Assembly (NCBI RefSeq): GCF_902167145.1
Contig: NC_050104.1
Location: forward strand, 104,481,849-104,545,848
DNA from: Zea mays
Lineage: Eukaryota; Streptophyta; Magnoliopsida; Poales; Poaceae
Reading direction: 5' to 3'
Length of the DNA: 64,000 nucleotides
The notes under the pieces were generated by a model. The model saw only the letters and a program-made list of their open reading frames with translations, made no database searches and was not told the origin of the DNA. Made by a program: the position numbers and the translations under genes. Shown in pieces: positions 8,101 to 52,180 of the stretch; position 1 is the stretch's first letter, and every line of letters starts with the position of its first letter.

Positions 8101-8120
8101 CCTTAAAGCCGGGTGTGACA
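5106..8120 (+). repeat. F 5' LTR
   Basis: Starts TGTAACACCCAC and ends GGGTGTGACA, matching 11742-14978 nearly base for base. It lacks 220 bp present in the 3' LTR (13101-13320); the joint is at 6464/6465 with a shared GT. ORFs such as 5464-5781 recur in the other LTR and are chance frames, not genes. I could not place a TATA box with confidence. Confidence 0.95.
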
Positions 8121-8124
8121 GAAG

Positions 8125-8135
8125 TGGTATCAGAG
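8125..8135 (+). promoter_or_regulatory. F primer-binding site
   Basis: TGGTATCAGAG, four bases after the 5' LTR, complementary to the 3' end of plant initiator methionine tRNA. This is where minus-strand cDNA synthesis would begin. It fixes F's orientation as +. Confidence 0.85.
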
Positions 8136-8794
8136 GAAATGTTGACTGTAGGACGAAACCTAGATAGAAATGGACAAACCCTTACCTACTTACCGTACTC
8201 TGATTCTTTCTTATCTTATCTTGATCATGTCTCACCTTCTACCGTTCTACTCTGATTATTCTTATCTTTTCTATTCTAAGACAAGATGGATTTCACACCT
8301 TGGAATCCTACATTTATGAACTTTTTTAGAGATAGGAAACCCAAGACAAAATTAAAACTATTTTCTCTATTAAAAATGTTGGTTGATTGTTCTGATGATC
8401 AATGCCTGATTTGATTCTTTGATTGATTGAAATAGTATAGACGGGCATCTTAGCATGTACCACCATAAGGTAATGAATTAACTTTAGTAGGTGACACACT
8501 AATCTACTTAGCTAATAAATCCCCCGCAGTAACATTTCTCGTAATTACTCGTCTTGTCTACAATTCTTCCTTTCTTACCCTGTATTTCTAACCCAGATGG
8601 GCTATCCCTATAGTGTTAAGAGAGCACTATAGCCGTGATCCTTGGTATGTCGTGGTTAAGAAAGGCAAAGACAATTTATACACTGTGCTAAAGAAACCAT
8701 AGAACTCACCAGTTCCAAAGAAGAAAGATTTAAAGTTGGAATTGCAGTAACTACCGCCACCAGACTAGCGGCATTCTTAGTAGATGAGAAGTTT
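8136..8794 (+). other. F leader and gag-deletion scar
   Basis: About 660 bp between the primer site and the start of RT homology. No Gag or protease motif and no long ORF is present, where a chromovirus normally has about 1.5 kb of gag-protease. The right part (about 8640-8790) leads directly into sequence preceding RT. The deletion joint could not be fixed without an intact relative. Confidence 0.7.
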
Positions 8795-11703
8795 GTGGGT
8801 GACAACATCCGTGCAGTTAGAGATTTTCCGAATGTCTTCCCAGAAGAGTTACTAGGGATGCCACCAGATAGGGAAGTTGAGTTTGTTATTGATCTTTTAC
8901 CTAGAACTGCCCCCATTTCTAAACGGCCATACAAGATGTCCGTAGAAGAGCTAAAGGAACTTAAGAAGCAATTAATGGAATTACAAGAGGCTGGGTACAT
9001 TCGTTCGGATTCTTCACCTTATGGAGCGCCGGTTCTATTTGTACAGAAGAAAGAAGGATCACAAGGGATGTATGTGGATTATAGGACCCTTAATGATGTT
9101 ACGATGAAGAACAAGTATCCGTTACCCCATATTGAGGATTTATTTGATCAGATGAGAGGAGCTAGAGTATTCTCGAAGATTGATCTCCGATCGGGTTACC
9201 ATCAGATGAGGATTAGACCATCGGATATTCCTAAGACGGCTCTCTCGACTCGATATGGATTATATGAGTTCACTGTTATGTCGTTTGGATTAACCAATGC
9301 ACCAACTTATTTTATGAACTTGATGAATAAGGTGTTTATGGAGTATTTGGACCGATTCGTCGTGGTATTCATCGACGATATCCTTGTTTATTCCTAGAGT
9401 GATAGTGATCATGATGAACATTTGAGATTGGTGCTACAGAAGCTACGAGATAATCAACTCTACGCCAAGTTTAGCAAGTGTGAGTTTTGGATTGGCGAGG
9501 TGCCATTTCTTGGTCATATTATTTCTAATGGAGGAATATCGGTGGATCCTGCTAAGGTTAAGGAGATAATGGAGTGGAGAGTACCCACTACAGTTACTGA
9601 GATTCGGAGTTTCTTGGGACTAGCAGGATATTATCGGAGATTTATTGAAGGATTTTCTAAGATTGCTAAACCTATGACTTCGCTTTTGGAGAAAGGAAGA
9701 GAATTTAACTGGGACGAGAAGTGCCAAGACAGCTTTGATCAATTGAAGAAAAGATTGATGTCGCCACCAGTATTGGTTATGCCAGATCTACAGAAAGGAT
9801 TTGATATCTATTGTGATGCATGTGGCCAAGGCTTAGGATGTGTGCTCATGCAGGAAGGACATGTGATTGCCTATGCGTCTCGTCAGTTACGGAAACATGA
9901 ATTGAACTACCCCACTCATGATTTGGAATTGGCAGCTGTTGTGCATGCGCTTAAGATTTGGAGACATTATATCATGAGGACCAAGTGCCAAGTATATACG
10001 GATCATAAGAGTCTGAAGTATATATTCACTCAAAAGGATCTCAACCTTAGGCAACGCCGTTGGTTGGAGCTTATTAAGGATTATGATTTGGAGATTCACT
10101 ATCACCGGGCAAGGCAAATTTGGTTGCAGATGCCTTGAGTCGAAAGGAGCATGTTCATTCAGCTTTTGTTTCCCAGCTACCCGATGAGATTATTGAGGAT
10201 TTTAGGAGACTTAACCTGGGGATAGTTGCTCACACTGAAGGAGTTACTATTGATGTGGAACCTACCTTGGAGCAAGAGATCCATAAAGGCCAAATTGGTG
10301 ATGCAAAAATACACGAGATTAAGGATCTGATTACTGAAGGTCGAGTTCCGGAATTTACGGAAGATGAGCAAGGCACCGTATGGTTCAAGGACAGGATGTG
10401 TGTTCCTGATATTGAGAGCCTTCGAGAGACTATTTTAAAGGAGGCCCATGATTCAGATTATTCTATTCATCCTGGTAGTACCAAGATGTATCAGGATTTG
10501 AAGCGGAAATGTTGGTGGTATGGATTGAAGAGAGATGTAGCTGCACATGTGGCTATGTGCGATGTATGTCAAAGAGTTAAGGCTGAACACCAGAGGCCAG
10601 CTGGACTATTGCACCCACTGAAGATACCCGAGTGGAAGTGGGAAGAGATTGGCATGGATTTCATTACAGGATTGCCTCGCACCCAGAAAGGATATGATGC
10701 TATATGGGTGATTGTGGATAGATTGACTAAAGTGGCTCACTTCATTCCTGTCAAGACTACTTATAAAGGTTCTCAGCTAGCAGAGTTATATATGGCTCGG
10801 ATTGTGTGTTTACATGGAGTACCAAAGAAGATCGTGTCTGATCGAGGTTCACAGTTTACCTCAAGATTCTGGAGAAGCTTTCATGAGAACATGAGCACGA
10901 AGTTGAATTTCAGTACGGCTTATCACCCTCAGACTGATGGACAGACTGAAAGGACCAATCAAGTTTTGGAGGATATGTTGAGAGCTTGTGCACTTCAGCA
11001 TGGAGGAAGTTGGGATAAAAGTCTACCTTATGCCGAGTTCTCATATAATAATAGTTACCAGGCCAGTCTGAAGATGTCACCTTTTGAAGCTTTATATGGG
11101 AGGAAGTGCAGGACTCCTTTGTATTGGGATCAGACTGGAGAAAGACAATTCTTTGGGCCTGAACTAATTCAAGAAGTAGAAGAACAAGTTCGTATAATTC
11201 GAGAGAATTTGAGGGTGGCTCAAACCAGGCAAAAGAGTTATGCTGATAATAGAAGGAGGCCACTGGAATTTGAAGAAGGAGATTATGTGTACCTCAAGGT
11301 GTCACCACTTCGTGGAATGAGGAGATTCAAAGTTAAGGGCAAATTGTCCCCACGCTATATTGGACCATTCATGATCTTTAGGCGAGTTGGGGAGATGGCA
11401 TACCAACTCGAGTTACCTGCTACTCTATCGGATGTGCATAATGTGCTCCACGTGTCTCAACTGAAGAAATGTCTTCGTGTCCCTGAGGAACAGTTACCAA
11501 TGGAAGAGCTCAGTGTTCAGGGTGATCTGACTTACACGGAGTACCCGATCAAGATTCTTGATACATTGACTCGAGTTACAAGAAATAAGGTGATAAAGAT
11601 GTGCAAAGTGCAATGGAGTCACCACGGTGAAGATGAAGCAACTTGGGAAAGAGAAGAAGAGCTTCACATAGATTTTCCCCACCTTTTCCCTATATCTTCT
11701 TAA
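8795..11703 (+). pseudogene. pol: F pol: RT, RNase H, integrase, chromodomain (broken)
   Basis: RT starts with the conserved FPNVFPEEL segment; catalytic residues lie in FIDDILVYS (about 9370-9395). RNase H follows (CDACGQGLG, about 9815). Integrase has an HHCC finger (about 10445-10570), DDE residues in GMDFITGL, SDRGSQF and DGQTERTN (10652-10950), a GPF/Y-type module (about 11350) and a C-terminal chromodomain-like segment (VQWSHHGEDEATWE, about 11610), which in chromoviruses guides integration into heterochromatin. Breaks: an in-frame TAG at 9395-9397 and a 1-base deletion near 10105, where the conserved [13 protein letters not shown] segment changes frame. The remaining 10120-11703 frame is uninterrupted. 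Stop TAA at 11701. Confidence 0.93.
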
Positions 11704-24489: not shown

Positions 24490-25153
24490 TGTTGGGGACT
24501 TGTTCTCAAATGCTATGAGTTAAGAACAAGGCAACACAGAAAATGTTAAACATTAAGATCCTTCGTCCTTTGAAGCATTATTTCCCTTAGGATATAACGA
24601 TCTCCGGACGAAGGTCATGAAGGATTAACCTTCATCACTACAATATACATTAGTAAAAGACGAAGCATATGAAACATAAAAGATAGCACGAATAATCATA
24701 TAACATTATTCATTTAACTTTATTAACTCATCATAAAGAAATAGAAACAATATTGAATTATAAATGTACCTTCGGCTTGGAAGGAGATGAAAATACAAGT
24801 GTGACGCAAAAGCAAATGCCAAGTCAGCGTGAACAGTACGGGGGTACTGTTCACCTATTTATAGGCACGGGGTACAACCCATACAAAATTACATACATGC
24901 CCTTTACATTTGGTGATAATTCTATGGCATTCTATCGAGGTCTAAATGGCCTTTTCATCTTTAAGTCGGTTCCCTTTTCTGCGAACATGCCGAAGCTTTC
25001 CTGCTTCACAGCTTCGGTACTGTGTCAACCTTCGTATCTTTTGAGCTTCTCCCTTTCTGATTCAAGTCCGAAGATACCTGTTCACACATTATACTCCAGA
25101 AACATTGTTAAATCATGTTTTTGAGGACCTTCGGAAGCCGAAGGCCCCCAACA
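24490..25153 (-). repeat. Z 3' LTR
   Basis: 664 bp, ends TGTTGGGG and CCCCCAACA. On the minus strand a TATA box (CTATAAATAGG) lies at 24855-24865. The ORF 24753-25124 recurs identically in the other LTR and is not a gene. Confidence 0.95.
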
Positions 25154-25166
25154 GTAGCCCCTCGCA
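25154..25166 (-). promoter_or_regulatory. Z polypurine tract
   Basis: Minus strand reads GCGAGGGGCTAC into the LTR start. Modest in purine content but correctly placed; H has a similar GGGGGCTAC tract at its 3' LTR. Confidence 0.65.
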
Positions 25167-25309
25167 ATATTAATTTGTTTGAAATAATAAATTCAGATTG
25201 CGATATGAACGAAGGCTTTATGCCGAAGGTCCGAAAAAACACCTTCCCTTTGCTAGAATAGCAACATTCAATGACAAGTGGGGTCTTTCAACTTTCAACG
25301 CATCAAGCG

Positions 25310-25317
25310 TATAAATA
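25310..25317 (+). promoter_or_regulatory. TATA box of the antisense gene in Z
   Basis: TATAAATA on the + strand, 144 bp upstream of the ATG at 25461 and inside Z's internal region, not its LTR. A start about 30 bases downstream would give a 5' leader of about 115 nt. The H counterpart has a TATA box at a similar distance. Confidence 0.7.
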
Positions 25318-25460
25318 CGGCCATACCGCAAACTTATTTTGCACGCTTTCTGGCCAACCACTCCTGCTCACTCATTTTTTAGCTCTTGTGCACTGTGATC
25401 TGCTAAGTTTTTAGCTTTGAAGCTTCGGCTTTTAAAAACAGTTTTTTAGCGCTTCCGAAG

Positions 25461-28400
25461 ATGTCTGAAGCTGCTAAGAAGGCTGCTGCTGAGATGAAGC
25501 TGAGTCTTGATGAAGAGAAGAACCTAGGGTTTCTTATAGCGATGTCGAAGTCCAACACAGAAAAGATTACCAAGGAAATTCTGGAGGGGCTGTCTGAAGA
25601 TACTGGTGACAGTGAAAGTTATGATATGGACAGCGGTGGCGAAGACTCCGAAGATCGCCCTTGGCGACCAAGCCATTCAGTTTATGGTAAATCAACTATC
25701 AAAGAGAATCATCTTGTTAATATGAGAGGAAGGTATTTCCGGGATCTGTCCATTGTGAGGGCGGACGAAGGGGAAAAAACTTGTCCACACCCTGAAGAAA
25801 ATGAAGTTGTGGTGTACCGAAGCTTTTTGAAAGCTGGATTGCGATTCCCCTTGAGCAGCTTCGTCGTGGAGGTGTTGAAAATCTTCGAAGTCTATCTTCA
25901 TCAACTTACTCCCGAGGCAATTATAAGGCTAAATATCTTCGTGTGGGCCGCGAGGAGCCAAGGTCTGAAGCCTGACGCAAGAAGCTTCTGTAATGTTCAT
26001 GAATTATTATATGAAACAAAGCCTTGGGGCAAAGAACAGTACCATAACAACTTTGGCTGCTACAGCTTCGTTTCTCGGTCCGGGGCGAGCTGTCCCGTAC
26101 CAACCTTTCGGAAGAGATGGCCCGGGGATTGGATGACAGAATGGTTTTATGTGAAGAATGACTTATCAGCACGAGAAGACATCAAAGGTATAATTATGCG
26201 TCCTATTTGGCAAAGCTTCGGCCTTCGGAGGCCGAAGGTTGAAATGAACGAAGCCGCCGAAGAGTGCCAAAGAGCCTTCGGCGTTGTCTGCTCTTTTATA
26301 GGAACAAGGGACTTAGTACAAGAACATATCGCCTTCAGGGTGTGGCCGCTTGCTGAGAAATGGGAAATGCCACAAGAAACCATAAAAGAGGCCGACGAAG
26401 GTGAGCTTGTGAGACTGAAGTACACCTTCAAATTTGGAGATAAATTTATTGAGCCAGATGATGAGTGGTTGAAAAGCATTGACAATTTAAGTGATGAGCT
26501 ACTCGGGACCTACTCGAAGGCTGAAGATAATGCAATGTCAGCAGCCTTCGGAGGCCGAAAAAAGAAGAGACTGAATCGGGTATTTGATGCCATTGGGTTT
26601 GTCTACCCTGATTACTGCTATCCCATTCGAAGGCAGAAGAGAAAAAACACAATCTCTGCAAAAGAAGAAGCTGCAGCTGCTCCTGGCGAGCCAGAACCGA
26701 AAAGGAAAAAGATAAAGGTTCTTACGCATCGGCCGCGTTATATTGAACCAGCTTCGGTGCCGGAGTTTACCGGGAAAACTTCTTCAGCCACCGAAGCTGA
26801 AAAACTAATCGAGCCAGCCTTGTTGCCAGAGATCGCAGAAACGGCCGAAGTGCCACCAAAGATAGAATCAGAACAATCAAACATTTTGTTGTCAGAAACA
26901 AAAGAGAAAACCGAAGCGCCGCTCACAGAAAAAATTGAGGAGGTAAGAGAAGCAACTGAGGGCTCCAAAACATCAGAAGTTTTGAGTCCTACAGCAATCA
27001 TTGGGACAGCAAAAAATGAAAAAGTGCCAGCTGCAACTCCGAAGAGAAAGAGAATGGCTAATGTGCTAGACGTATTGGAAACGATCAAATCTTCGAGCAC
27101 ACCTCCGAAGAAAGCTGCTGTTACTCCTGAAACAACAGCTGAAATCTCTGGTTCTACAGCTCCAGAGCAAAAGATTGAAGCCGAAGCTGGACCCTCAGAG
27201 CCCGCAAAAACTTTGGAAAGTGAGGCAGAGAAAATAACAAAGCCAACTATTGAAGAATCTAGTGTTGTTGCCCCCGAAGCATCCCCCAAAATTCGTGATT
27301 ATATTTTTCGTCATGCTTCGGGGAAAAAATTATCAGAAAAAGAAGAACAAGAGGCCCAGCATTATGCCCAAAAACTGAAATATCCGAAGGGGGCGTTAAT
27401 ATTTAATGGCAGTGGAGAAGAAGACTTCTTGTACTGTCTTCCCGACAACAAGGAAATTTCTGTCTGTCGGGAGATAAGCAGAAGCTTCGGATTCCCAACT
27501 TTAGAAGACGGACTTTCGGTGCTATCAAAAAACGATCTGGCTGACAGCCTAGCTTATAACAGTTTAAAGGTATGATAAATGAAATCCTTGTATTTTTCCG
27601 TTCATTTAAACCCTCTGACACACACACATATTCCTTCTTGCAGGGCTTGATTCTTAGCAATGCTCTCAGAGCCCAGAAAGATACTGAAGACGAAGGGTGT
27701 ACTATAGCCCTGAGCAACCTTCGTTCCGAAGTAATTGAACTGAGGAACGAAGGTCTCGAAAAAGACAAAATATTATACTCATTGATAGATAAAATAAAGG
27801 AGGACGAAGCTGCTTTCAAAAGTCAGGCTGAAGCTCAGAAACGCGAAATTGAAGACCTTCGGAAACAACTGGCCAGAGCCAAAGAAGAACGTATACTTGA
27901 AGAAACAAAGCGTGAACTCAGCGATCAATGGGCAGATCACCTAGAAGTGACTGTTGAAGAGCTTCGTTCATCCAAAAAGAGATGCTACAATAAATCTATA
28001 GACTGTGTTAAAAAATTAAAGGCTAGCTTCGCCAAGGTCGGCGCATTCTCAAGTGAAGAAAATTTTTCGAGGGGCAATCCCGAAGGTGTCATTGAATGGA
28101 TTGACCACGAAGCTGAAGCCTTCGAAGAAATTTTAAATAGCCGAGGAGATATATGTGCCTTCTCTGGCGCCAGAGGGATTGCCACCATTTTAGAGAAAAA
28201 GGGCTGTGAGCATGTAAAAATTTTAGCACAGTCCGAAGCCACCTTGTCGACTGAAGATATAAAAGATCCTTCAGCCGAAGCTAGCGCGGTTGGGGGAAAA
28301 TTTTTCACTGACATCTGGGACAACGGTGGCCGAGAAATGGCAAGAGAAATTATTCAGAGAAGTGAAAAGGGCATCCATGATGCTAGAGAAGTGGCTAAGG

Positions 28401-28663
28401 CTGCTGAAAAGAGCACAGAGCCCGAAGGTCAATTAGGTACTAAATAATAGTTTTTACCGTGTTGTAATCTTTAGGCTTTTAAGATCTGTTTGCGATTTGT
28501 AATAGTAATGTAGTCGTGTCCTGCTTCAGATCCGACTAAAGCGCCTTCGGGCCCTCAGCCGAAGGGGGACGACGAAATTAAAAAGATGGCCGAAGATATT
28601 ATGGACGAAGTCGTCAATCGGCTTCTGAATGAAGCTGCAGGAGTCGTTTTGAGAGAGGATTAA
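25461..28663 (+). CDS. Intact three-exon antisense gene in Z (plant gypsy-associated family)
   Basis: Exons 25461-27569, 27644-28436 and 28530-28663 join in frame to give 1011 residues. Intron 1 (27570-27643) has donor AAG/GTATGA and acceptor TTGCAG/GG; intron 2 (28437-28529) has TTAG/GTACTA and TTCAG/AT. Residues about 115-235 form a conserved region (FPLSSF to WFYVKND) that I relate to the plant 'putative gypsy type transposon' domain (Pfam Transposase_28, from memory). A Lys/Glu/Pro-rich, low-complexity stretch (about 400-660) follows, then a coiled coil in exon 2 (about 725-800) and an acidic C-terminus. No known catalytic motif is visible and function is unknown. Transcription would run against Z's genomic RNA, so introns are not lost by retrotransposition. 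Confidence 0.85.
27570..27643 (+). other. Intron 1 of Z antisense gene
   Basis: 74 bp, GTATGA to a pyrimidine-rich TTCCTTCTTGCAG. The upstream exon ends on a codon boundary (2109 nt) and the downstream exon continues in the frame that stays open to 28436. Reading through without splicing hits TGA after four bases. Confidence 0.85.
28437..28529 (+). other. Intron 2 of Z antisense gene
   Basis: 93 bp, GTACTA to TGCTTCAG. Phase 1: the last G of exon 2 plus AT of exon 3 makes one Asp codon, and the frame then stays open to TAA at 28661. Without splicing the frame stops at 28445. Confidence 0.8.
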
Positions 28664-28790
28664 ACATTTTTGTAAAAAACTTCGGAAATGTAATATAATG
28701 TAACATTTTTGTAACCCCGAATGTAATATATCTATTTTTGCTACTCAATTCTTTACGATGCATGAAACTTTACACACGTACCGTTTTTGA
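28664..28790 (+). other. Likely 3' end region of Z antisense gene
   Basis: AT-rich stretch directly after the stop with repeated AATGTAATATAATG-like words (about 28687-28735), of the kind plant polyadenylation regions use. No exact AATAAA is seen, so the cleavage site is not placed. Confidence 0.4.
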
Positions 28791-28877
28791 GTTTGGCGAA
28801 AAAACACCTTCCCTTCTTTTCATGCTTCGTGAAGAATATCCGAACTTCGTGAAAAAATTCTCCGAAGCTATACTTCG

Positions 28878-29036
28878 AAGATGAAGATTGTGTCTCCTTG
28901 TGACCATGATTTTCACTCTTTCAAATCATACTTTCGAAAATCAATATTGTGTCCCCTTCTTGGGACCACGATTTTCACTCTTTCAAATCATACTTCCGAA
29001 GATCAATATTGTGTCCCCTTCTTGGGCCATATGCAA
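28878..29036. repeat. About 62-bp tandem repeat in Z
   Basis: Two and a half copies of a unit containing TCAATATTGTGTCCCCTTCT and ATTTTCACTCTTTCAAATCA, beginning near 28878, 28937 and 28999. Non-coding; it lies between the antisense gene and the end of gag, where pol sits in autonomous relatives. Confidence 0.75.
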
Positions 29037-29162
29037 CATGATGTATGATGCTTATGCTATGCAAAATGATGTAATGATGTTATGCTACGTAGATGACATT
29101 TGTTCCGAAAGATACACACATATCCCCACACAATATTTTTGTATCAGCACTGATTCTTCGCT

Positions 29163-29343
29163 GTAAGCTCTGCATTCCCTTAGGAACGTCTTTGGAGCTT
29201 CTTCGCCTCTTACTTAGGCGGTATAAGCTCTGCATTCCCTTAGGAACGTCTTTGGAGCTTCTTCGCCTTTTACTTAGGCGGTATAAGCTCTGCATTCCCT
29301 TAGGAACGTCTTTGGAGCTTCTTCGCCTTTTACTTAGGCGGTA
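29163..29343. repeat. Exact 60-bp tandem repeat, three copies, in Z
   Basis: Units starting at 29163, 29223 and 29283 are nearly identical (one C/T change), each with TAAGCTCTGCATTCCCTTAG and CTTCTTCGCC. The period of 60 keeps both strands open and gives a repeated 20-residue peptide, but no start or gene context supports translation. Decayed copies continue to about 29480. Confidence 0.9.
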
Positions 29344-29651
29344 TCAGCGTTGACTTTTCGCTGTATGCTCTGCATTCCTTTTGGAACGACTTTGGAGCAG
29401 AAAACTTACGCTGCGCTCCCTTCGGAACGACTTTTTGTGACTTCGTCAGACTTACTCTGCGTTCCTTAGAACGACTTTTCGTTGCTTCGAAGGATTTTCG
29501 ATAGTCCGAAGGTCCTTTTTATTGTCGCAAACCTGTGAAGAAAACATATTTTTCTTGTAGGAATCAACGAAACTAATTACATGAAAACAATGTCCTTTAT
29601 TACAGAGAATAAAACTGAATGAAAAAGATTGCTATTAAGGTAGGATATTTG

Positions 29652-31169
29652 TCAATAGATGTGCTTTGATTCTGGCACGGTGCTGTTGACCGTGCGAGCT
29701 TCGGACTGTTCTCTGAAGTCCCTTTGATGTGGAGCATATTGGCTCCCTTCTGGCTGCTGACCTTGTTGCAACGGAGGTGGAGGCGGAGGCTGTTGCCAGG
29801 AAGCTGAAGGCTGACTTGCCGAAGCAGCAGAGACTACAGGATGATTGCCCACATATTCTGGGATGTAGGGCGAATGATACGAAGCTGTATGCATGACCTG
29901 CTTCGGCTGGGCTTGTTGTGCTGCTGCTTCAGCTATTTCCTTTTGCTTCTGTATAGTAACATGGCACATCCTGATAGTATGGCCTTTGTTCTCACCACAG
30001 AATAAGCAAAAGATTCTTCTTGGTTGATCGCCAAATCTTCCTCCGAAGCCCCTGGCGCCTCTGCCTCTTGGAGCTGGTGGTCGGAAGGAGCTTTGCTGTT
30101 GCCCCGAAGCCTGTGAGGAGTACTGTGGCCTTTGCTGCTGGCTCCCCTTATCATCATTTTGATTGGAATTATGAATTGATCTGACATGCCTCGGATAGAA
30201 TCTTCCTCCGAAGCCCCTGGTCATCTCAGAAAATCTGAAGGCCTCCTCCCTTCTTTGGCGAAAATCATTGTCAGCTCGAATATATTCATCCATCTTCTGG
30301 AGCAGCTTCTCCAGCGTTTGTGGTGGCTTCCTAGCAAAATACTGCGCTGATGGCCCTGGCCGAAGCCCCTTGATCATGGCCTCAATAACAATCTCATTGG
30401 GCACTGTCGGTGCCTGTGCCCTCAAACGCAAGAACCTTCGGACATATGCCTGAAGGTATTCTTCGTGGTCCTGAGTGCACTGGAACAGAGCCTGAGCAGT
30501 GACCGGCTTCGTCTGAAATCCTTGGAAGCTGGTTAACAACAAGTCCTTCAGCTTCTGCCATGAAGTGATCGTTCCTGGTCGAAGGGAGGAATACCAGGTT
30601 TGAGCAACACTTCTAACAGCCATGACGAAAGATTTGGCCATGACTGAAGCATTGCCACCGTACGAAGACACTGTTGCTTCGTAGCTCATCAAAAACTGCT
30701 TCGGATCAGAATGGCCATCAAATACGGGGAGCTGAGGCGGCTTGTATGATGGAGGCCAAGGTGTAGCCTGTAACTCAGCAGACAGGGGAGAAACATCATC
30801 AAAAACAAAATTCCCATGATGGAAATTGTCATACCAGTCATCTTCGTTGTGAAAGCCCTCCTGATGAAGGTCTTGATGCTGAGGCCTTCGGTATTGCTCA
30901 TCCTGAGCAAGATGACGAACTTCTTCAGAGGCTTCGTCTATCTGCCTCTGCAGTTCAGCTAGCCTGGCCATCTTCTCCTTCTTGCGTTGAACCTGCTGCT
31001 GAAGGATTTCCAGATTTCGAATCTCCTGATCTAGATCATCCTCCGGAGGTGTTGGACTGGTAGCCTTCCTCTTCTGGCTCCGTGCTTCTCTAAGAGAAAG
31101 GACGTCTTGATTGGGGTCCAGCGGCTGCAGCGTGCCAGCCCCTGGTGCTGAAGCCTTCTTCGGCGGCAT
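29652..31169 (-). CDS. gag: Z gag, uninterrupted
   Basis: 505 codons from ATG 31169 (MPPKKASAPG), about 60 bases after the primer site; an upstream in-frame extension to 31208 starts with TTG, so it was not used. A charged, Gln-rich coiled coil (residues about 40-95) precedes a Retrotrans_gag capsid domain (about 180-300; AQTWYSSLRPG, YLQAYVRRFLRLR). A nucleocapsid part follows with one zinc knuckle CLFCGENKGHTIRMC, spaced CX2CX5HX4C instead of the usual CX2CX4HX4C, and a Gln/Pro-rich tail. It would form the particle that packages Z RNA. No protease or pol follows. Confidence 0.92.
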   Translation of the reverse strand: MPPKKASAPGAGTLQPLDPNQDVLSLREARSQKRKATSPTPPEDDLDQEIRNLEILQQQVQRKKEKMARLAELQRQIDEASEEVRHLAQDEQYRRPQHQDLHQEGFHNEDDWYDNFHHGNFVFDDVSPLSAELQATPWPPSYKPPQLPVFDGHSDPKQFLMSYEATVSSYGGNASVMAKSFVMAVRSVAQTWYSSLRPGTITSWQKLKDLLLTSFQGFQTKPVTAQALFQCTQDHEEYLQAYVRRFLRLRAQAPTVPNEIVIEAMIKGLRPGPSAQYFARKPPQTLEKLLQKMDEYIRADNDFRQRREEAFRFSEMTRGFGGRFYPRHVRSIHNSNQNDDKGSQQQRPQYSSQASGQQQSSFRPPAPRGRGARGFGGRFGDQPRRIFCLFCGENKGHTIRMCHVTIQKQKEIAEAAAQQAQPKQVMHTASYHSPYIPEYVGNHPVVSAASASQPSASWQQPPPPPPLQQGQQPEGSQYAPHQRDFREQSEARTVNSTVPESKHIY

Positions 31170-31225
31170 GACGAAGCTGATGCTTGCCGAAGGTGCCGAA
31201 AAACTCAAGAAGTGGAAGTGAGTTC

Positions 31226-31242
31226 ACCGGAGGTGGGCGCCA
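31226..31242 (-). promoter_or_regulatory. Z primer-binding site
   Basis: Minus strand TGGCGCCCACCTCCGG, one base inside the 5' LTR. The position and TGGCGCC start fit a tRNA primer site; the tRNA was not identified. Confidence 0.75.
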
Positions 31243-31243
31243 A

Positions 31244-31907
31244 TGTTGGGGACTTGTTCTCAAATGCTATGAGTTAAGAACAAGGCAACACAGAAAATGT
31301 TAAACATTAAGATCCTTCGTCCTTTGAAGCATTATTTCCCTTAGGATATAACGATCTCCGGACGAAGGTCATGAAGGATTAACCTTCATCACTACAATAT
31401 ACATTAGTAAAAGACGAAGCATATGAAACATAAAAGATAGCACGAATAATCATATAACATTATTCATTTAACTTTATTAACTCATCATAAAGAAATAGAA
31501 ACAATATTGAATTATAAATGTACCTTCGGCTTGGAAGGAGATGAAAATACAAGTGTGACGCAAAAGCAAATGCCAAGTCAGCGTGAACAGTACGGGGGTA
31601 CTGTTCACCTATTTATAGGCACGGGGTACAACCCATACAAAATTACATACATGCCCTTTACATTTGGTGATAATTCTATGGCATTCTATCGAGGTCTAAA
31701 TGGCCTTTTCATCTTTAAGTCGGTTCCCTTTTCTGCGAACATGCCGAAGCTTTCCTGCTTCACAGCTTCGGTACTGTGTCAACCTTCGTATCTTTTGAGC
31801 TTCTCCCTTTCTGATTCAAGTCCGAAGATACCTGTTCACACATTATACTCCAGAAACATTGTTAAATCATGTTTTTGAGGACCTTCGGAAGCCGAAGGCC
31901 CCCAACA
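31244..31907 (-). repeat. Z 5' LTR
   Basis: 664 bp, apparently identical to 24490-25153. The minus-strand TATA box (CTATAAATAGG) at about 31609-31619 is the promoter for genomic RNA. Confidence 0.95.
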
Positions 31908-31912: not shown

Positions 31913-33873
31913 AGACACCGCCACAACAGCAGTGGTAACATCAGAAGCTGGTGGCACCGGCGGCTGAGGGCAGACGGAGCTGAAGACCGGTGACGTGAAA
32001 GCCAGGGTGACCGGCCGGAGCGGAGAGGAAGAAGGACCAACTGTAGGAAGAGGGGGTCCTGGCTGAATCGCTGGCACAACAGGAGCCTGAAGAGGTGGAG
32101 GCGGTGCTGACTGAACTGGGGCAATCGATACACCAGAATGCTGTAGCATAAGAGTCATGAATGCCCTGCTCTCAGCCCGGTCCTAAAGAAGCTGCTGCGG
32201 TAGAGAATCCTGCCTGTCCTGAATTGTTTGAAACATTGAGAGCATTCTCTCGGACAACTGCTGGTGGGCCGCTGCCTGACGGGTCTGCTCGGCTGCCAAG
32301 TGAGCCTGCTGCTGAGTAAGTGTCTGGAGGATCGAAGCAAGAGCAGGGTCAATGGCAGGAGGGGCAGCAGGGGTAGCACTAGAACTCCCAGTCTCATGAT
32401 CATGTGAGCGTGGAGGCATAGGAGGCGGAGGCGGAATCCCAAAATCATCATCATCATCAACTGCTGCATTCTGAGCTTCGAACTGATGAAGAGCAGTATC
32501 CTCGGCCTGAGTGTCAAATACTAGAGCAGGTGCTGGCACAGGATCCTCAGGCGCTGGACGGTAGGACCCAAAGATGAGGCGTGAGGCCTCAAGTGTGCCA
32601 TGGAACTGTGGAGGCCGAATCAGCTGAGCAAAAATGTGACACAGATAGTGAGCATAAGGCAGCTGTCGACGAGCACGCAGACCATCCAAAACGTTGTCCT
32701 CGATCTCACAAATAAGGAAATCCACAACATCAAACTCTGAGTGAGAGACCAGGGCACCAAGGAGCCAGAGCTGGATATGAGTGGTAGCCTCCCTGTACCC
32801 CATCCATGGAAGAAGTGTCTGTCTCATAAGCTGATATAAAAACTTTGCTGCTGTGGTGAAGTCTGCCGGAGAGCGTCGCGACCCATCTGAGAAGGGTGGT
32901 CGGAACAGAGCCGCGACATGAGCTGTACTAGGAGCAACACCGCCGTGAGGGCGACGAGGAGGGTCAGAGGTGCCATAGCATAAGCTGTGAAGACGAGTCG
33001 ATGACTCGTGAAATCCAAATAGCTGGCGAATCTGGCTGGCATGAATAGTGACATCCTCTCGCTCAAAACGGAATCTCATCCAGTGATGATCAGGGTCGAT
33101 CCATACAGTAGCGTAGAAAACTCGGACCCATTCCTCAACATATCTGCCGCTGGTAGTCAAAAGAGTGAGAAGACCATGCAGATAGGAGAGGTGTACCTCA
33201 GAGTCAGCACCAGCGGCAAGCAGAAATGCAGGAAGGTCCAGAAGCCGGTGAACTCGCAGAGCAATCTATGCAGACATCTGAACTCTAAAAAAGGACTCCT
33301 GAATACGGGTGCTGAAGAGGTCAACTGCAGCAGGGTCCCTCTGAGCCGGTAACCAAGACTCCACGGGTACGTATCTGAACTAACATATTTGTGCCGCTGT
33401 AGCATGCTGAAGGTCAAACAACCTGGGATCTGCAGCCAGAGGTCGCACCTCAGTCTCATCACGCTCCCGGAAGCGAGCAGGTGGGATAGGTGGAGCGGAA
33501 ATGGGAGCGGGAGGAGGAGCAGTGGAAGCTGGTGTAGCAGAGGTGGTGGATGGCGCAGCAGGGGTGACGGGAGCAGGCAAAGTGGGTGGTGGAGTGGAAG
33601 CAGTGGTGGGAGCGGAGGAGCGAGGCCGGGAGGCGAGGCGACGAACTCGGTACGCAATCTGATCTGAAGGAGTTTGTGGCTGATCTCCTAGCTCGGCCTG
33701 CTCAGCGGCTGCTGCTGTTGCTGCCGCTGCTCGGGCTGCTCTGTCCATACGCCACTTCTTGCGGCCTTCCTGCTGCTCCAAGTACACGGTCTTTCCCTTG
33801 ACCTGCCTGAAGGGGCGACAAGGATCCTCATCATCGCCTCCCCTGGCGCCAACACATTCTTCGTGTGCGGCAT
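31908..33873 (-). pseudogene. B env-position ORF, N-terminal and central part (broken)
   Basis: Lies downstream of B's pol on the same strand, where Sireviruses carry an env-like gene. A start ATG at 33871-33873 follows a good splice acceptor (polypyrimidine then TTTGCAG at 33887). Visible parts: a Lys/Arg-rich segment (VKGKTVYLEQQEGRKKWR), a Pro/Thr/Ala-rich stretch, then a globular region at 33160-32530 (DHHWMRFRFEREDVTIHASQ, THIQLWLLGALVSHSE), an Asp run, a Pro run and a Gln-rich coiled coil. Frameshifts near 33860 and 33370-33170 and a stop near 32183 break it. I see no signal peptide or membrane anchor. The globular region reminds me of the 'putative plant transposon protein'/Athila ORF1 type rather than a viral envelope. 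Confidence 0.7.
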
Positions 33874-35542: not shown

Positions 35543-38500
35543 TTAAATAAAATTTCTGAGATCAAGTATATTTAATTCATTCATCAACATGCAAAAGCGG
35601 GTCTTATCAAGTGGCTTAGTGAAAATATCCGCTAATTGATCTTCCGGCCTCACTCCTTCTAAAATGATATCTCCTTTAGCAACATGATCTCTAAGGAAGT
35701 GATGACGGATATCAATGTGCTTGGTGCGAGAGTGTTGTATAGTATTATTAGCAATTTTAATAGCACTCTCATTATCACACAACAAAGGTACCTTTTCTAG
35801 AACTACGCCATAGTCTAGAAGAGTTTGTTTCATATATAAAATTTGTGTGCAACAAGCACCCGCGGCAATGTATTCTGCTTCGGCGGTTGACAAGGCAACA
35901 CTATTTTGCTTTTTGGATGTCCATGATACTAGTGATCTACCAAGCAGATGGCATCCCCCAGAAGTACTTTTCCTATCAATTTTGCAACTGGCATAATCCA
36001 AATCGGAATAGCCAATTAAATCAAAAGTAGCTCCTTTGGGATACCACAGACCAACGCTTGTGGTGTGTCTGAGATACCTAATAATTCTTTTAACAGCGCG
36101 AAGATGAGCTTTCTTTGGATTAGATTGAAATCTAGCACACATGCAGACACTAAACATGATATCGGGCCTAGATGCAGTAAGGTACAATAAACTACCAATC
36201 ATAGAACGGTAGAGAGTTTGATTAACCGGGTTACCTCCCTCATCTAGGTCGAGATGTCCATTTGTTGGCATAGGTGTCTTGATTGGTTTGCACTTCTCCA
36301 TGTTGAACCTTTTCAACAAGTCTTTGGTATACTTCTCCTGTGAGAGAAAGTTACCATCTTTCATTTGCTTGACTTGAAAGCCGAGGAAGTACGTCAGCTC
36401 ACCAATCATTGGCATCTCGAACTCCTTCGACATCAACTCACCAAATTCCTTGCAATGACAGTCATTTGTCGAGCCAAATATTATATCATCAACATATACT
36501 TGACAAATGAAAATATCACCGTTATGTTTCTTTGTGAATAGAGTTGTGTCGACGGTCCCGATCTTGAAGCCCTTTTCGATGAGGAAGTCGCGAAGACGCT
36601 CATACCAAGCCCTTGGAGCTTGCTTTAGCCCATATAGCACCTTGGACAACCTGTAAGCATGGTTAGGATATCTAGGGTCTTCAAATCCAGGTGGTTGCTC
36701 AACATATACAAGTTCATTTATGAAGCCATTTAAAAATGCACTTTTTACATCCATTTGATAAAGCTTTGTATCATAGCATGATGCATATGCGAGTAGGATA
36801 CAGATGGCTTCCAGTCGAGCAACCGGTGCAAAGGTCTCTCCAAAATCTAAGCCTTCAACTTGAGAGAATCCTTTTGCAACAAGTCTTGCTTTGTTCCTTA
36901 CAATCACACCATGATTATCTTGTTTGTTTCTGAACACCCACTTTGTTCCAATGATTCTTGCATCTTGTGGGGGCTTCTCCAGGGTCCAAACTTGGTTACG
37001 GGTGAAGTTGTTAAGTTCTTCATGCATAGTGTTCACCCAGTCCGGATCCTATAGCGCCTCATCTATACAAGTAGGCTCAACACAAGAAACAAAAGAGTGA
37101 TGTTCAATAAAAGAAGCATGTCTATGTGATCGAGTAATAACCCCTTGTGAAGGACTCCTAATGATTTGGTTTTGAGGATGAGCTTGAAGTAGTGATGAGC
37201 TTCTCTTGTCAACCACTTGGGAAGAAGATCTTGGAGCATCAACATCTTCGGCTTGTACCCTTGCTTGTTCATGAGAGACAAATGTATCTTCATTTGCATG
37301 CCTCTCATCTTTTTCATCATATTGTGGTACATTTGATGAAGAAGGCCTGTCAATGTTTTGCACCTCTTCTTCATCTTCTTTTGGTTTGATAGCTCCAATT
37401 GGCATGTTCTTCATTGCTTCCCTAAGTGGCTCATCACCTACATCATCAAGATTTTCAAGTGCTCCTTGGGAGCCATTAGTCTCATCAAATTCCACATCAT
37501 ATGTTTCTTCTACCATGCCAGTGGCATGATTGAATACTCGATATGCTTTGGACTTTAATGAATAACCCAATAGAAAACCAATATCACAACGTCTTTGAAA
37601 CTTCCCTAGGTGATGGCGTTTCTTGTAGATGTAGCATTTGCATCCAAACACCCGGAAGAAGGAGACGTCTGGCTTTTTCCCATTTAGCAGTTCATAGGGA
37701 GTCTTCGCAAGCAACCGGTGAGGAAATAACCTGTTTGATGCATAACATGCAGTGTTGACAGCTTCGGCCCAAAACCTCTTCGGTGTGTTATACTCATCAA
37801 TCATTGTTCTTGCAAGTGTGATCAAGGTCCTATTTTTCCTTTCAACAACTCCATTTTGTTGAGGTGTATATGTTGCAGAGACTTCATGCTTGATCCCAAT
37901 TTCATCACACTACTCATGAATGTTGGTGTTGTCAAATTCTTTACCATTATCACTTCTAATCTTCTTGATCTTGCAATCAAATTCATTTTGAGCTTTCTTG
38001 GCAAACTTCTTGAATACAGATGCAACTTCAGATTTGTCATGGAGAAAGAACACCCAAATGTATCTTGAGAAATCATCAATAATCACTAGACAGTAGAGGT
38101 TGCCACCAGCACTTACATAATTTGTAGGTCCAAATAAATCTATATGAAGTAGTTCCAGTGGCCTTGATGTTGACATGAAAGCTTTAGTAGGATGTGTATT
38201 AGCAACTTGCTTTCCAGCTTGACATGCACTACAAGGCTTGTCCTTTTCAAATACCACATCCTTTAATCCTCTAACCATGTCCTTCTTTAATACCTTCTTG
38301 AGTGTGCTCATCCCAACATGTGCAAGCCTCCTATGCCAGAGCCATCCAAGTGATGCTTTGGTGAAGAGGCAAGTTCTTAAGTCTGCATCTTCTGAGGTGA
38401 AATCAACTAAGTAGAGATTGTTGTATCTAAATTCTTTGAACACCATTGATTCATCATCCATTTTTGATACAATAACTTATGTTGGAGTGAATAAGCATTG

Positions 38501-38770
38501 AAGTCCAAGATCACAGAGTTGACCCACTGATAATAAGTTGAAGCTCAAAGGTGCAACCAAGAGAACATTTGAAATTGCCACCTTGCCAAGTCCTTGCACT
38601 TTCCCTTTTGAATTGTCTCCAAATGTAATTTTATCTTGTCCATCAACATTCTCATCAAGTGAGGTGAACATCCGTGGGTTGCCTGTCATATGTTGTGTGC
38701 ATCCACTGTCAATAACCCAATGGCTCCCACCGGTCTTGTAGTTCACCTATATCCACAGACAAATCAAGCT
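35543..38770 (-). pseudogene. pol: B pol: protease, integrase, RT, RNase H (nonsense codons only)
   Basis: One frame throughout. Protease has WVIDSGCTQHMTG (about 38720). The GAG-pre-integrase region and integrase follow, with D, D, E residues in IDLFGPTNY (about 38143), RSDNGKEFDN (about 37950) and NGVVERKNRT (about 37850). RT runs from about 37036 with VYVDDIIFG (about 36495), and RNase H has [35 protein letters not shown] and [12 protein letters not shown]. It ends at 35543. Only three in-frame stops separate long open stretches: TAA near 38474, TAG near 37907 and TAG near 37046. The RT-RNase H part (497 codons) is uninterrupted. Pol is in a different frame from gag. Confidence 0.93.
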
Positions 38771-38867
38771 TGAGTTTTGAGGGCCCTATATTGCATAGGA
38801 CCAGTGACTCTCTCAATCAAGGACTTTGCAACCCAAATTTGTCTAGGTCTACTCTTGTTTGGTGGAC

Positions 38868-41054
38868 CTAGGAATGTACTTTGACCTTTCCATTTGCAAC
38901 TTTTCTTAGAACATAATGAGCATTGAAAGCAAATGGTCTTGAGTGCTTAGGCAAGGGAGTTAGTAGTTTGGCTTTGCAGTTGTGGGCAAAGTGACGTTCT
39001 TTTCCACACTCAAAGCATTTGATAGGCTTGTGAGTCTGCTTTGGCTTGTATTGAGTAGTAGCTTTCTGTTGCACAAAAGCATTGTATCCAATACCACTCT
39101 TGTTGTTTTTCATGACAGTGTTCATAAGCAACTCATTTTGGAGGTATTGGCCCTTGTTGAACTTTTGCACACTTGTTGCAAGATGTTCATTTTCACTCTT
39201 AAGTTTCTTGACCTCATTTTTAAGCCTTTCATTATCCACTGCCAACTCATTGTTGAAATCATTGTTCTCAATAGCAACCTTTCCTCTAGTAGTTGCATCA
39301 GTCAAGTATCTCTTCAATTTTTGGTTGTCTAAAGTCAAGACTTCAACTTTTTCGGTCAGTTCATCATGTAGACTAGTTTGCTATCCTTGACTCAAATCAT
39401 CACATGAGGTTGCTACATCAATCTTAACAACAGGGTTAATAGCCTCATGTGTTTTGCAAGATAAAAGTTCATTTTCAACAAGAAGATTATCATGATCAAA
39501 TTTAATCTTAGTATAGTCTTCCTTGATTTTCACTAGTCTATCTTGCAACTCCCTATTAGCTTCATTTAACTTATCACATTTATCCTTAGCATCTTTTAGG
39601 GAGGTTGTGAGTTCATTTACAGTGGATGACATAGTTTTGTTTTCTTCTTTCATTTCATCACTAGCTTTCATAACTATGACATATTTGGCATTTAAAGATT
39701 CATTTTCATTCTTCAACTTATCACATTTAGCTTTTGACTTCCTAATGATTTGAGTATATTCTTTAAGCAAGTCAGCTAGTTAATCATATGAAGGTGAAGC
39801 AAATTCCTCATCACTATCACTATCACTATCACTATCATCAGTAATATCAATATCATTTTGTACCTTCCGTTCACCTCTAGCCATGAGGCATAGGTGAGAA
39901 GTTGATGATGGCGATGGTGGTGGTGAAGAGAAGTCCCCGGCGATGGCGGCAACTTTTTCATCATTCTCTTCTTCACTTGAAGAAGATCCACTTGAAGACT
40001 CAATGTCAGTGAGCCAGTCACCAACAATATATGCCTTTCCATTTTTCTTTTTGTGGAACCTCTTTTGCTTCCCATCCTTCCTCTTGAAGAATCTCTTTTC
40101 CTTCTTCTCATCATCGTTGTCATCTTCTTTCTTGCCCTTGAACTTGTTCTTCTTGGGCTTGTTACATTGATGAGCAAGATGACCAAGCTCTCCACAGTTG
40201 TAGCAATCCATCTCAGAAATGGGCTTTCTTTTGTTGGAAAAGAATTTCTTCTTTCTTGAATCAAATTTGATGCCTTCTCTGTTGAGCTTCTTTAACATCT
40301 TGGTGGTCTTCCTCACCATCAAGGCAATGTTAGCATCAAGGTCATCATCACTTGAGGATTCTTCCTCAATTTGTATTTTAGCTTTTCCTTTTCTTTCTTG
40401 ATTTGCTTTGAGAGCCAAATCCTTTCTCTTGGAAGATGACTCATCTTTGTCATTGATGTGCTTGTACATCTCATGAGCATTGATCTTTCCTAATATCTGT
40501 GTAGGTGTGGTAACTGAAAGATCCATTTGATGTAGCACAGTGACAATGTGTCCATATTTGTCTATTGGGAGGACACTAAGAATCTTCCTCACAACATCCG
40601 GTTGTGAGATTTGAGTAAGCCCCAATCCATTTTCTTCCTCTACAAGAATATTGAGACGTGAGTACATAGCATTGGCATTTTCATTAGCAAACATTTCAAA
40701 AGAATTTAACTTTCTCGTAGCAATGTGATATCTCTCCTCACGCTCACTTCTAGTTCCTTCATGTAGAGCACAAATGTCCATCCACAAATCATGAGCATTT
40801 TTATGATTTCTAACTCTATTGTACACATCTTTGCAAAGGCCTCTAAAAAGGGTGTTTTTGGCCTTAGCATTCCATTTCTCATAATTAAACTTGTCACCTA
40901 CAAGATTTGTGCGATCTCTAGGTTCGGGGAATCCTTGTGTGGCGGCTTTATAGACACCAATGTCTATAGCCTCTAAATATGCTTCCATACGAATTTTCCA
41001 ATATGGAAAATCGTCACCATCAAAAATGGGAGGAGGTCCATCCCCACCGGACAT
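38868..41054 (-). pseudogene. gag: B gag (two nonsense codons)
   Basis: Starts MSGGDGPPPIFDGDDFPYWK at 41054, 37 bases after the primer site. A UBN2-type capsid domain (residues about 10-210), a CCHC knuckle CYNCGELGHLAHQC (about 40200) and lysine and Ser/Asp-rich stretches follow. A long coiled coil (39770-39050) and a second zinc-finger-like motif CFECGKERHFAHNC (about 39010) complete it. All parts are in one frame, interrupted by TAA at 39780 and a stop near 39379. Two knuckles flanking a coiled coil differ from the single knuckle in E1 and A. Total length is about 729 codons. Confidence 0.9.
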
Positions 41055-41091
41055 CGTAACTCTAGCGGTTAAGCTAATCTAAGAGCAACAA

Positions 41092-41104
41092 GGCTCTGAT
41101 ACCA
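41092..41104 (-). promoter_or_regulatory. B primer-binding site
   Basis: Minus strand TGGTATCAGAGCC, two bases from the 5' LTR: a full match to the initiator methionine tRNA 3' end used by copia elements. Confidence 0.92.
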
Positions 41105-41106
41105 AT

Positions 41107-42593
41107 TGAAAGGATCACGATGCCCAAGAGGGGGGGTGAATTGGGCTTTTCTAAAAATCAACACTAATTAAAACCTAAGCAAGAGCTAAACAAGAGCCCA
41201 ACTTCACCCAACAACTAGCACTAAGATAATAATACTAGAAATACAACAGTGCTAAGATAATACTTCAAATACTTGCTAAACAAATACATAATGTAAAGTG
41301 CTTGAATTAAGTGCAGAATGTAAAGCAAGGTTTAGAAGACTCCTCCAGTTTTCCCGAGCTATCGAAGAGTCGGCACTCTCCACTAGTCCTCATTGGAGCA
41401 CCCGCGCAAGGGTATCGCTCCCCCTTGGTCCTCGCAAGAACCAAGTGCTCACTACGAGATGATACTTTGCCACTCCGGCGTGGTGGATCCCTCGAGACCG
41501 CTTACAAACTTGAGTCGGGTCACCAACAAGATCTTCACGGTGATCACCGAGCTCCCAACACCACCAAGTCGTGTAGGTGATGCCGATCACCAAGAGTAAC
41601 AAGTCGTAGACTTTTGCTTGACCAAGAGAAGCCTAATGCAAGTGGTGTGTGCTCTAGGTGGCTCTCGCTAGCGCTAATGAGGAACAAATGCGGGATTAAG
41701 ATTCTCTAATCTCCTCACTGGACTTTTGGTGCTTGCAATGCTCTAGCAATGTGCTGGAATTAATGTGGGCAGCAAGACATTGAATATGGTGGGTGCAGGG
41801 GGTATAAATAGCTCACACCCACCAACTAGCCGTTACCAGCACTGTTCTGCGCATGGGCACATCGGACAGTCCGGTGCGCCACCGGTGCGCCAACGGTGTG
41901 CCACTTGGTGCGCCAACGGTCGACTCCAACGGCTAGTTCTGACAGGTAGCCATTGGGCTGATGGCACACCGGACAGTGAACAGTCACTTTCCGGTGCACA
42001 CCGGACAGTCCGGTGCACTGTCTGGTGCACTGTCCGGTGCGCCACTAAAATTCATTTCTGAAAGTGGCGCTTTCGGGTTTCTGTGGGAGAAAACTCTTCC
42101 CCAGGGCCACGTTGGCCCCACCTGGTAGAGGGCGCACCGGACAGTCCGGTGCCCCAAGGCCAGAAACTCTATTTCCTGTTTTTAGTTGTTTTTCAAATCG
42201 GTTTTCGTTCTAACTTGTGAGTGAGTTCTAGAGTGACACCTAGCACTATATGTGAGTGTGAATGTGCACCACCACTACACTAGAACTCTCTTGGTCAAAC
42301 TACTCATCGATAACCCCTCTTTATAGTACGGCTTAAAAGAGAATAAAAGACCTAACTAAATCACGAGTGTCCACATCTCCTTGACACTCGGACTCCGTAG
42401 TCCTTCACCTTTTGTTTCGTCGTTTTAGCCGTCGCTTCGAGTTCTTATCTCCGGGATTGTTTTCACTGTTGTAGTACTTCTACCTATAATGCGACCTAAC
42501 TTACCATTTGTCTCTGCAAAACACACGTTAGTCACATATAACATTACGTTGTCATTAATCACTAAAACCAACCAGGGGCCTAGATGCTTTCAG
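41107..42593 (-). repeat. B 5' LTR
   Basis: 1487 bp; minus strand starts TGAAAGCATCTAGG at 42593 and ends ATCCTTTCA at 41107. It matches the 3' LTR at 22626-23876 with scattered substitutions and small indels (for example extra sequence near 41895), so B is older than Z. The palindrome cluster is at 41861-42150 and a TATTTATA element near 41805. Confidence 0.93.
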
Positions 42594-50690: not shown

Positions 50691-50768
50691 GTGAGTGTCC
50701 GCTCCTTCTTTCTCCTTGCGTCGGATTGCCCTTGGTCCTCACGGCCGAGACTTTTCGCCTGTCTCCAG
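50691..50768 (+). other. Intron 1 of H antisense gene
   Basis: 78 bp, CTG/GTGAGTG to CTGTCTCCAG/GAG. A multiple of three, so it can also be read through; the donor is a near-perfect plant consensus. Confidence 0.65.
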
Positions 50769-51433: not shown

Positions 51434-51507
51434 GTAAGTACCTTAGGATGTCTTCGTCTCGGCTCCCCCTTTGTATGTCCCGATCCTGACTTTCCTTTCC
51501 TCCTTAG
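51434..51507 (+). other. Intron 2 of H antisense gene
   Basis: 74 bp, TGG/GTAAGTA to CCTCCTTAG/C. Splicing restores the frame (GG plus C gives Gly) into the long open frame that contains 51644-52111. Confidence 0.75.
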
Positions 51508-52111: not shown

Positions 52112-52180
52112 GTAATGATTTCAGGTATACCTTTTTCGTGATCAAGGCGTCCTTTGTGACGCCCCGCTTCCTTCCCTCAG
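52112..52180 (+). other. Intron 3 of H antisense gene
   Basis: 69 bp, TAG/GTAATGA to CTTCCCTCAG/GAT. The last exon codon is TAG, most simply a former CAG. Confidence 0.65.

Follow-up and report, generated by a model that had tools for sequence, protein, structure and literature searches.

A spliced-type antisense gene under purifying selection in a gag-only Zeon-like retrotransposon of maize, and a short DNA word that its protein may recognise

Why would a retrotransposon that carries gag and no pol keep a long, intron-bearing gene on its antisense strand? The question is raised by element Z, a Zeon-like long terminal repeat (LTR) retrotransposon in a 64,000-nucleotide stretch of Zea mays DNA (assembly GCF_902167145.1, contig NC_050104.1, positions 104,481,849 to 104,545,848; hereafter the window, whose own numbering is used throughout). 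We herein report that the antisense strand of this element carries a spliced-type, protein-coding accessory gene, that purifying selection keeps the gene, and that a five-base word, CGAAG, is written through the element far beyond expectation. By analogy, the encoded TRP28 protein may act in the nucleus on the DNA of its own family via CGAAG, in a way comparable to VANC anti-silencing, which we regard as a real, though still tentative, possibility.

Joined together, the three exons of the gene (Table 1) amount to 3036 nt and encode 1011 amino acids with a single terminal stop, and an open frame of 722 codons here is the longest on either strand of the window. The exon and intron coordinates, the phases 0 and 1 and the 1011 codons had been proposed in a first-pass annotation made from the sequence, and proved exact when the joined translation was checked. 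The TATA box that it placed before the gene is likewise kept, as a TATA-like box reading TATAAATA in 39 of 43 genomic copies and TATATATA in 4. A bacterial promoter scan was also run, and is uninformative for plant DNA.

The copies were collected by searching the genome with the exon-1 protein. Scoring was confined to the best 63 of 58,333 first-look candidates, and exon 1 is stop-free in 59 of the 63. The 43 copies comprise the best 30, 10 others chosen from that list and 3 distant ones obtained with a homologue query. They include the window's own copy (L001) and form a sample biased by discovery through the exon-1 protein. With splice boundaries taken from alignment with the window, the two introns described in the first pass are retained and GT-AG in all 43. 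Intron 1 is 74 nt long in 29 copies and otherwise measures 70 (2 copies), 89 (3), 90 (4), 91 (1), 92 (3) or 95 nt (1), so that its lengths span all three residue classes of 3, and intron 2 ranges from 92 to 97 nt. An in-frame stop lies inside intron 1 in 37/43 copies. Exon lengths, on the other hand, differ solely by multiples of three in 40/43, the exceptions being an exon 2 indel in L006 and L016 and an altered exon 3 in L039, and the complete protein is open in 37/43, with premature stops in L004, L009 and L041. A frame kept across introns of all three length classes is hard to explain without splicing. Introns can persist in such an element because an antisense mRNA, which has neither primer site nor LTRs, should escape reverse transcription.

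The splice positions are also reflected in the protein collection, in which relatives number 1949 for exon 1 (from scoring the 7993 candidates with the most shared words) and 3975 for exon 2. The 120 listed for each exon are largely unnamed open reading frames (ORFs), which probably come from grasses. Among the listed exon-1 relatives, 83/120 reach the conserved end of the exon; the next residue is Val in 82 and Met in one, beyond which the tails vary. Val (GTN) is what a phase-0 intron starting with GT must encode at that place. Similarly, the residue upstream of exon 2 is readable in 49 of the 120 listed relatives and is Q in 46/49, the residue that CAG encodes. Some relatives have an intron 1 that is open and in frame, yet unlike in sequence. 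No intron loss was seen among the relatives compared, and the intron position appears to predate maize's own subfamilies. A direct exon 1–exon 2 junction was not found among the 289 proteins compared from the matches listed, which contain only genomic read-through of stop-free introns; such a check of a protein collection weighs neither for nor against splicing.

Two side observations concern individual copies. In L040, L041 and L042 the 90-nt intron 1 has no in-frame stop, so that unspliced RNA could read into exon 2, and the stop-to-stop frames are 1014, 965 and 1014 codons. L048, which is likewise gag-only and open over 1014 codons, resembles L047 and L049 in exon 1, but its identity to the window is 85% for exon 2, 80% for intron 2 and 79% for exon 3; the copy may have arisen by recombination with a more distant lineage.

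The first-pass annotation held that the gene is kept by selection, and the ratio of non-synonymous to synonymous divergence (dN/dS) between diverged copies is indeed about 0.11 rather than near 1. For this comparison, 14 representatives were chosen from the 37 intact copies, the six broken ones being excluded. Over the 82 of 91 pairs with dS > 0.05, which are not independent of one another, the mean is 0.111 (range 0.060 to 0.225), and dS between the copies compared runs from 0.05 to 0.54. Between L001 and L014, which belong to two subfamilies, dN and dS are 0.0206 and 0.2423 by NG86, and 0.0218 and 0.1647 by YN00. Their 184 differences are distributed 25/25/134 over the three codon positions and change 42 amino acids, against 133 in a neutral simulation (minimum 113 in 2000 runs); 184 simulated differences create 7.4 stops on average, and none at all in 0.05% of the 2000 runs. 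Exons 2 and 3 together, which were in neither search query, have a dN/dS of 0.122 (88 pairs), and exon 1, which is biased toward conservation by the search, has 0.100 (77 pairs). Along the alignment the ratio is 0.063 for codons 1-200, 0.081 for 200-433, 0.283 for the linker at 433-633 and 0.024 for the end of exon 1. The corresponding ratio for gag lies between 0.028 and 0.104 (6 pairs among four copies other than the window's). Within subfamilies the signal is weaker, as would be expected if copies decay after insertion. In group A (11 copies), changes confined to a single copy comprise 3 stops, 43 non-synonymous and 33 synonymous changes, and those common to several copies stand at 12 non-synonymous to 6 synonymous; in group B (16 copies) the corresponding figures are 22 to 19 and 1 to 6. 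Neutrality would give about 2.5-3.4 non-synonymous changes for each synonymous one.

These data bear on two alternatives. The youth of the window copy is the only point in favour of a chance open frame, or a captured host gene, that is newly inserted and still undecayed. We give this virtually no credence, since the gene is kept at dS of 0.05 to 0.54 and in thousands of relatives elsewhere; a chance ORF or neutral drift is rejected by the simulation, by the conservation of the introns in 43 copies and by dN/dS. In the second alternative the product is the antisense RNA and not a protein, and the RNA would pair with genomic RNA and feed or modulate silencing by small interfering RNAs. Every antisense transcript necessarily overlaps the genomic RNA, and such a role has been proposed in a review (PMC7264820; papers given by PMC number are cited for the accessible parts of their text). 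It is nevertheless very unlikely here, since it is the amino acids that are under selection (dN/dS about 0.11) and the frame is kept across introns that change in length.

The protein that is so preserved belongs to the TRP28 class. PF04195 matches it with 41.4 bits against a curated cut-off of 26.2 (E 1.7e-10), and its gene is antisense and lies beside the 3' LTR. Basic stretches, including residues 366-370, 393-395, 414-417 and 528-531, look by eye to be of the kind that imports proteins into the nucleus; the strict form PKRKKxKVLTH is present in only 16/59 aligned sequences. The model of exon 2 predicts one long helix at residues 2-134 and is confident only in part. Two viral-contig matches, at 28% identity over 89 residues, were judged too weak and due to chance.

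The second main observation is the word. Counted on both strands of one LTR plus the internal region, CGAAG occurs 102 times, against a shuffle mean of 13.9 and a maximum of 23 in 100 shuffles, and the longer CCGAAG 54 times against 3.2 in the same 6754 bp. These counts are from the window element, and the exons of six other copies were counted too. Its density is 15.1 per kb in the element and 2.2 per kb in the rest of the window, and 98/258 CpGs of the element lie inside the word, compared with 122/2641 elsewhere in the window. By part, there are 10 words in the LTR (0.7 expected), 32 in exon 1 (5.3), 15 in exon 2 (2.0), 16 in the spacer (2.0) and 19 in gag (2.4), with 55 and 46 on the two strands (counted by part; one word crosses a border). 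None occurs in either intron of the 43 copies. Of the 15 single-base neighbours of the word, the rarest is at 0.33 times expectation and the commonest, the CpG-decay product TGAAG, at 1.95 times, whereas CGAAG itself reaches 7.1 times. Codon choice does not account for it either: in synonymous-codon shuffles the gene has 51 words against 17.9 (maximum 28 of 500), and gag 19 against 5.9 (maximum 13).

The word is also unusually well kept between copies. Between Z and the diverged copy L047, it is intact at 92/102 sites and ranks first among the 50 5-mers that have 25 sites or more, whose median is 0.74. In the internal region it is kept at 84/92 sites, compared with 74% for other 5-mers (p 3.3e-5), and stands out from other CpG words as well (p 6.5e-5). 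In the LTR, which is 79% identical between Z and L047, it is kept at 8/10 sites against 38% (p 0.0085), and between Z and L050 at 7/10 against 34% (p 0.024). Synonymous third positions are kept more often inside the word than outside it in 9/9 comparisons, which are not independent; between L001 and L047, for instance, 86/91 are kept inside and 710/826 outside.

A word throughout the body of the element, together with a selected gene of a class reported as nuclear in Grande and predicted to bind DNA, suggests that the word is read by the product of the gene. The mechanism that we propose would begin with transcription of the antisense gene from a promoter of its own next to the 3' LTR, followed by splicing. 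The protein, with its TRP28 domain, basic stretches and long helix, would then work in the nucleus, in trans, on Cinful-Zeon DNA, where it would recognise [A/C]CGAAG[C/G], abundant in the LTR, gag, exons and spacer and not in the introns. Its likeliest effect would be to regulate the family's own chromatin or transcription, an anti-silencing function like that of the VANC proteins of Arabidopsis VANDAL elements. As a model for such a system, VANC21 binds YAGTATTAY, a word frequent in VANDAL21 but uncommon outside it, and has been linked to methylation loss there (PMC5735166). Both systems combine an accessory gene with a short word that is concentrated in the family itself and scarce outside it, and the strong enrichment seen for the VANC word in its family is found for CGAAG too. 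VANDAL is a DNA transposon, however, and the function of VANC has been shown by experiment, whereas we infer that of the Z protein. The likeness is one of way of working, and a Pfam search of the Z protein gave PF04195 alone.

Several points weigh against the proposal. The putative link between protein and word is drawn from their occurrence in one element, and the gene is known here from DNA. The words of VANC are found mainly in tandem repeats of non-coding DNA and in one orientation; CGAAG does not cluster in this way, occurring in either orientation and within coding sequence as well. No usable fold was obtained (a model of the first 442 residues has a pLDDT of 33.8), and a PDB sequence search returned no credible solved relative, with one match at E 0.37 for exon 1 and none at E 0.01 for exon 2. 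The zero count in the introns means little, as they are short and poor in G+C, and the upstream count of 4 (0.5 expected) is matched by a shuffle maximum of 4. When the LTR words are set against other CpG 5-mers, the difference is no longer significant (8/10 vs 39/70, p 0.13, for L047; 7/10 vs 31/70, p 0.12, for L050), and neither the spacer (15/16, p 0.29) nor the upstream part (3/3, p 0.68) reaches significance. Other stretches of the window also have family words, though these are lesser cases. Positions 50656-57409, which we take to be Huck-like, contain CCGAGG 44 times against 9.7, one base away from the Zeon word CCGAAG, and the TRP28 domain was not found in the two antisense ORFs tested there. 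Positions 37148-43901, presumably opie-like, are rich in another family word, CACCGG (13 vs 0.6). The latter word lies within CACCGGACTGTCCGGTG, a box that has been listed for both OPIE-2 and PREM-2 (PMC2829016).

The lack of significance against CpG 5-mers in LTR, spacer and upstream part, together with the location of some words within the tandem repeats at 29164-29348, would suit a word that is a historical by-product, left by an ancient repeat expansion or a mutation bias and bound by nothing at present, the protein being an accessory factor of unknown target. We consider this unlikely, since the enrichment exceeds codon choice in two unrelated coding sequences, CGAAG outranks all others of the 50 5-mers in conservation between Z and L047, and the word persists although CpG sites decay in methylated DNA.

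A different alternative accepts the gene and its selection, and assigns CGAAG to another factor, such as Gag/nucleocapsid or packaging, integrase, or a host transcription factor, while the TRP28 protein has another role, such as bringing the pre-integration complex into the nucleus. This is possible, though we lean against it. The word is as dense in gag and the LTR as in the gene, and Sireviruses have family-specific CGG-CCG boxes for which a host transcription factor has been considered (PMC2829016). Those boxes resemble CGAAG in being short, CpG-bearing, family-specific and present in many copies; they differ in being symmetrical and placed in the LTRs and before env, whereas CGAAG is non-palindromic and spread throughout coding and non-coding DNA. 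For a packaging signal in particular, the near-equal use of both strands suits double-stranded DNA better than RNA, and reading the word as an RNA tetraloop, CUUCGG, was rejected, as it is not set in stems more than a control.

Recognition of CGAAG by the TRP28 protein would have consequences beyond this locus. A wider proposal, which we hold to be doubtful, is Retand self-recognition, in which a spliced TRP28 protein would bind a word written through the family's DNA, its protein-coding parts included, and so keep Cinful-Zeon active despite heavy methylation of the genome; each other family's TRP28 protein would then have a word of its own and would coevolve with it. If the Z protein does bind CGAAG, no earlier case of sequence-specific self-recognition by a plant LTR retrotransposon is known to us, and such binding might help to explain the spread of a two-part family despite silencing.

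The layout of Z itself answers the other half of the question. In sense order, gag is followed by a 1-kb spacer with short tandem repeats and then by the opposite-strand gene, which adjoins the 3' LTR and has its ATG 307 bp from the inner edge of that LTR. The gag frame extends from stop to stop over 29652-31223 (-) and matches PF03732 with E 4.3e-19 (Pfam); no pol ORF was found within Z in the ORF list of the window. The first-pass view that the element was recently active is borne out: its two LTRs have 0 mismatches across 664 bp and are flanked by the target-site duplication GTCAC, and the insertion is therefore very recent.

Table 1. Coordinates of element Z and of the features it contains (LTR, long terminal repeat)
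Feature	Position	Strand	Remarks
Element Z	24490-31907	-	7,418 bp, gag-only, Zeon-like
3' LTR	24490-25153	-	664 bp; identical to other LTR; 10 CGAAG/CTTCG words
CGAAG/CTTCG word	24490..31243	.	102 in 6754 bp, one LTR counted
Candidate promoter box TATAAATA of antisense gene	25310..25317	+	from sequence; 143 bases before ATG
Exon 1	25461..27569	+	703 codons: N-terminal part, TRP28 117-177, basic 414-417, variable linker, strongly conserved end
Intron 1	27570..27643	+	phase 0, GT-AG, 74 nt
Exon 2	27644..28436	+	long predicted helix (perhaps coiled coil), C-terminal part
Intron 2	28437..28529	+	phase 1, GT-AG, 93 nt
Exon 3	28530..28663	+	contains stop codon
Spacer, non-coding	28664..29651	.	~1 kb; short tandem repeats, 62-bp + 60-bp units; 16 CGAAG words
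gag	29652..31169, ATG at 31169	-	sole long sense ORF; PF03732
5' LTR	31244-31907	-	664 bp; identical to 3' LTR

The oddness that the first-pass annotation saw in a gag-only element disappears in the light of the Cinful (pol) and Zeon (gag) split family already described (PMC8547701): a pol-less element persists because its partner, Cinful, supplies the other half. In the window, gag is present, pol is absent and an LTR lies beside gag, as in Zeon. Six genomic copies read past the gene have gag and then an LTR with no pol ORF between (6/6), the LTR match being full-length in five and partial (292-664 of 664) in L033. Zeon is given as 7,459 bp with an LTR of 698 (PMC3091746), and the label is applied to Z for its size, LTR length and gag-only layout, not for identity to a named maize record. 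The Cinful-Zeon family RLG00001 shares with Z its gag-only state, size and youth (PMC8547701, PMC2774510), whereas the antisense gene that Z carries goes unmentioned in the accessible text of these papers. As Z lacks reverse transcriptase, its placement in the Retand lineage leans on that of Cinful (PMC6317226; PMC11963269). Table 1 of PMC11963269 includes two maize clusters without GAG and with RH, INT and TRP28, and LTRs of 585-587; these may be the Cinful half, in which case the antisense gene would be in both halves.

Nor is there support for the supposition that the gene is an under-described oddity of a single element. According to one survey, 97% of Retand clusters have antisense TRP28 ORFs (Vicient 2025, PMC11963269), and another study gives 23% of Retand elements (PMC6317226); both these ORFs and the gag/pol split are already known. 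TRP28 is predicted to bind DNA, and the function of the antisense gene has been called unknown (PMC11963269). With those ORFs, the Z gene shares the antisense orientation, the position between the sense genes and the 3' LTR, PF04195, nearby tandem repeats and the youth of the elements. PMC11963269 lists ORFs, however, and the accessible main text does not contain the words intron and zeon, whereas Z has three exons, conserved introns, a gag-only layout and a family word. ORF-only surveys would miss exons 2 and 3 as parts of the gene. A counterpart in Grande, gene23 (Gomez-Orte 2013, via the review PMC7264820), is also antisense and 3' of the sense genes, with its own promoter and a nuclear protein; Grande is a different family, and the likeness is drawn from the published description. 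Extra ORFs of sunflower Athila and Tekay have been described, with RNA-silencing modulation suggested for those of Tekay, and the accessible part of that study does not treat the present gene (PMC11728184). The three-exon structure and the CGAAG word were not found in searches of an open-access library; among the papers listed there, none has CGAAG together with Cinful, and the one with CGAAG and zeon concerns Pichia. Older papers on Zeon-1, Cinful and Grande may describe introns. A gene model, its selection and a candidate DNA target are thus given together for one of maize's largest element families, and CGAAG offers the antisense Retand genes a testable target, hitherto lacking.

Other TRP28 loci were also examined for words, with element bounds not set and hence no claim on generality. 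At L051 the top 5-mer is GCCGA (66 vs 21.9) and the top 6-mer is CTTAAG, apparently from a tandem array. L052 has a 398-aa TRP28 ORF within 6001-9000 and AGCTCG 18 times against 1.6, and L053 has no 6-mer above z 5. Beside the insertion site of Z, an ORF at 32183-33265 (-) encodes 360 aa, and its match to PF20167, Transposase_32, stays below threshold (E 2.9e-7, 31 bits against a cut-off of 45). Finally, at L053 a 308-aa TRP28-like ORF (395-1318, +), 33% identical to the window protein over 85 residues, lies about 1.4 kb from an ORF that reads by eye like a cis-prenyltransferase, and is possibly a lone or domesticated TRP28 copy.

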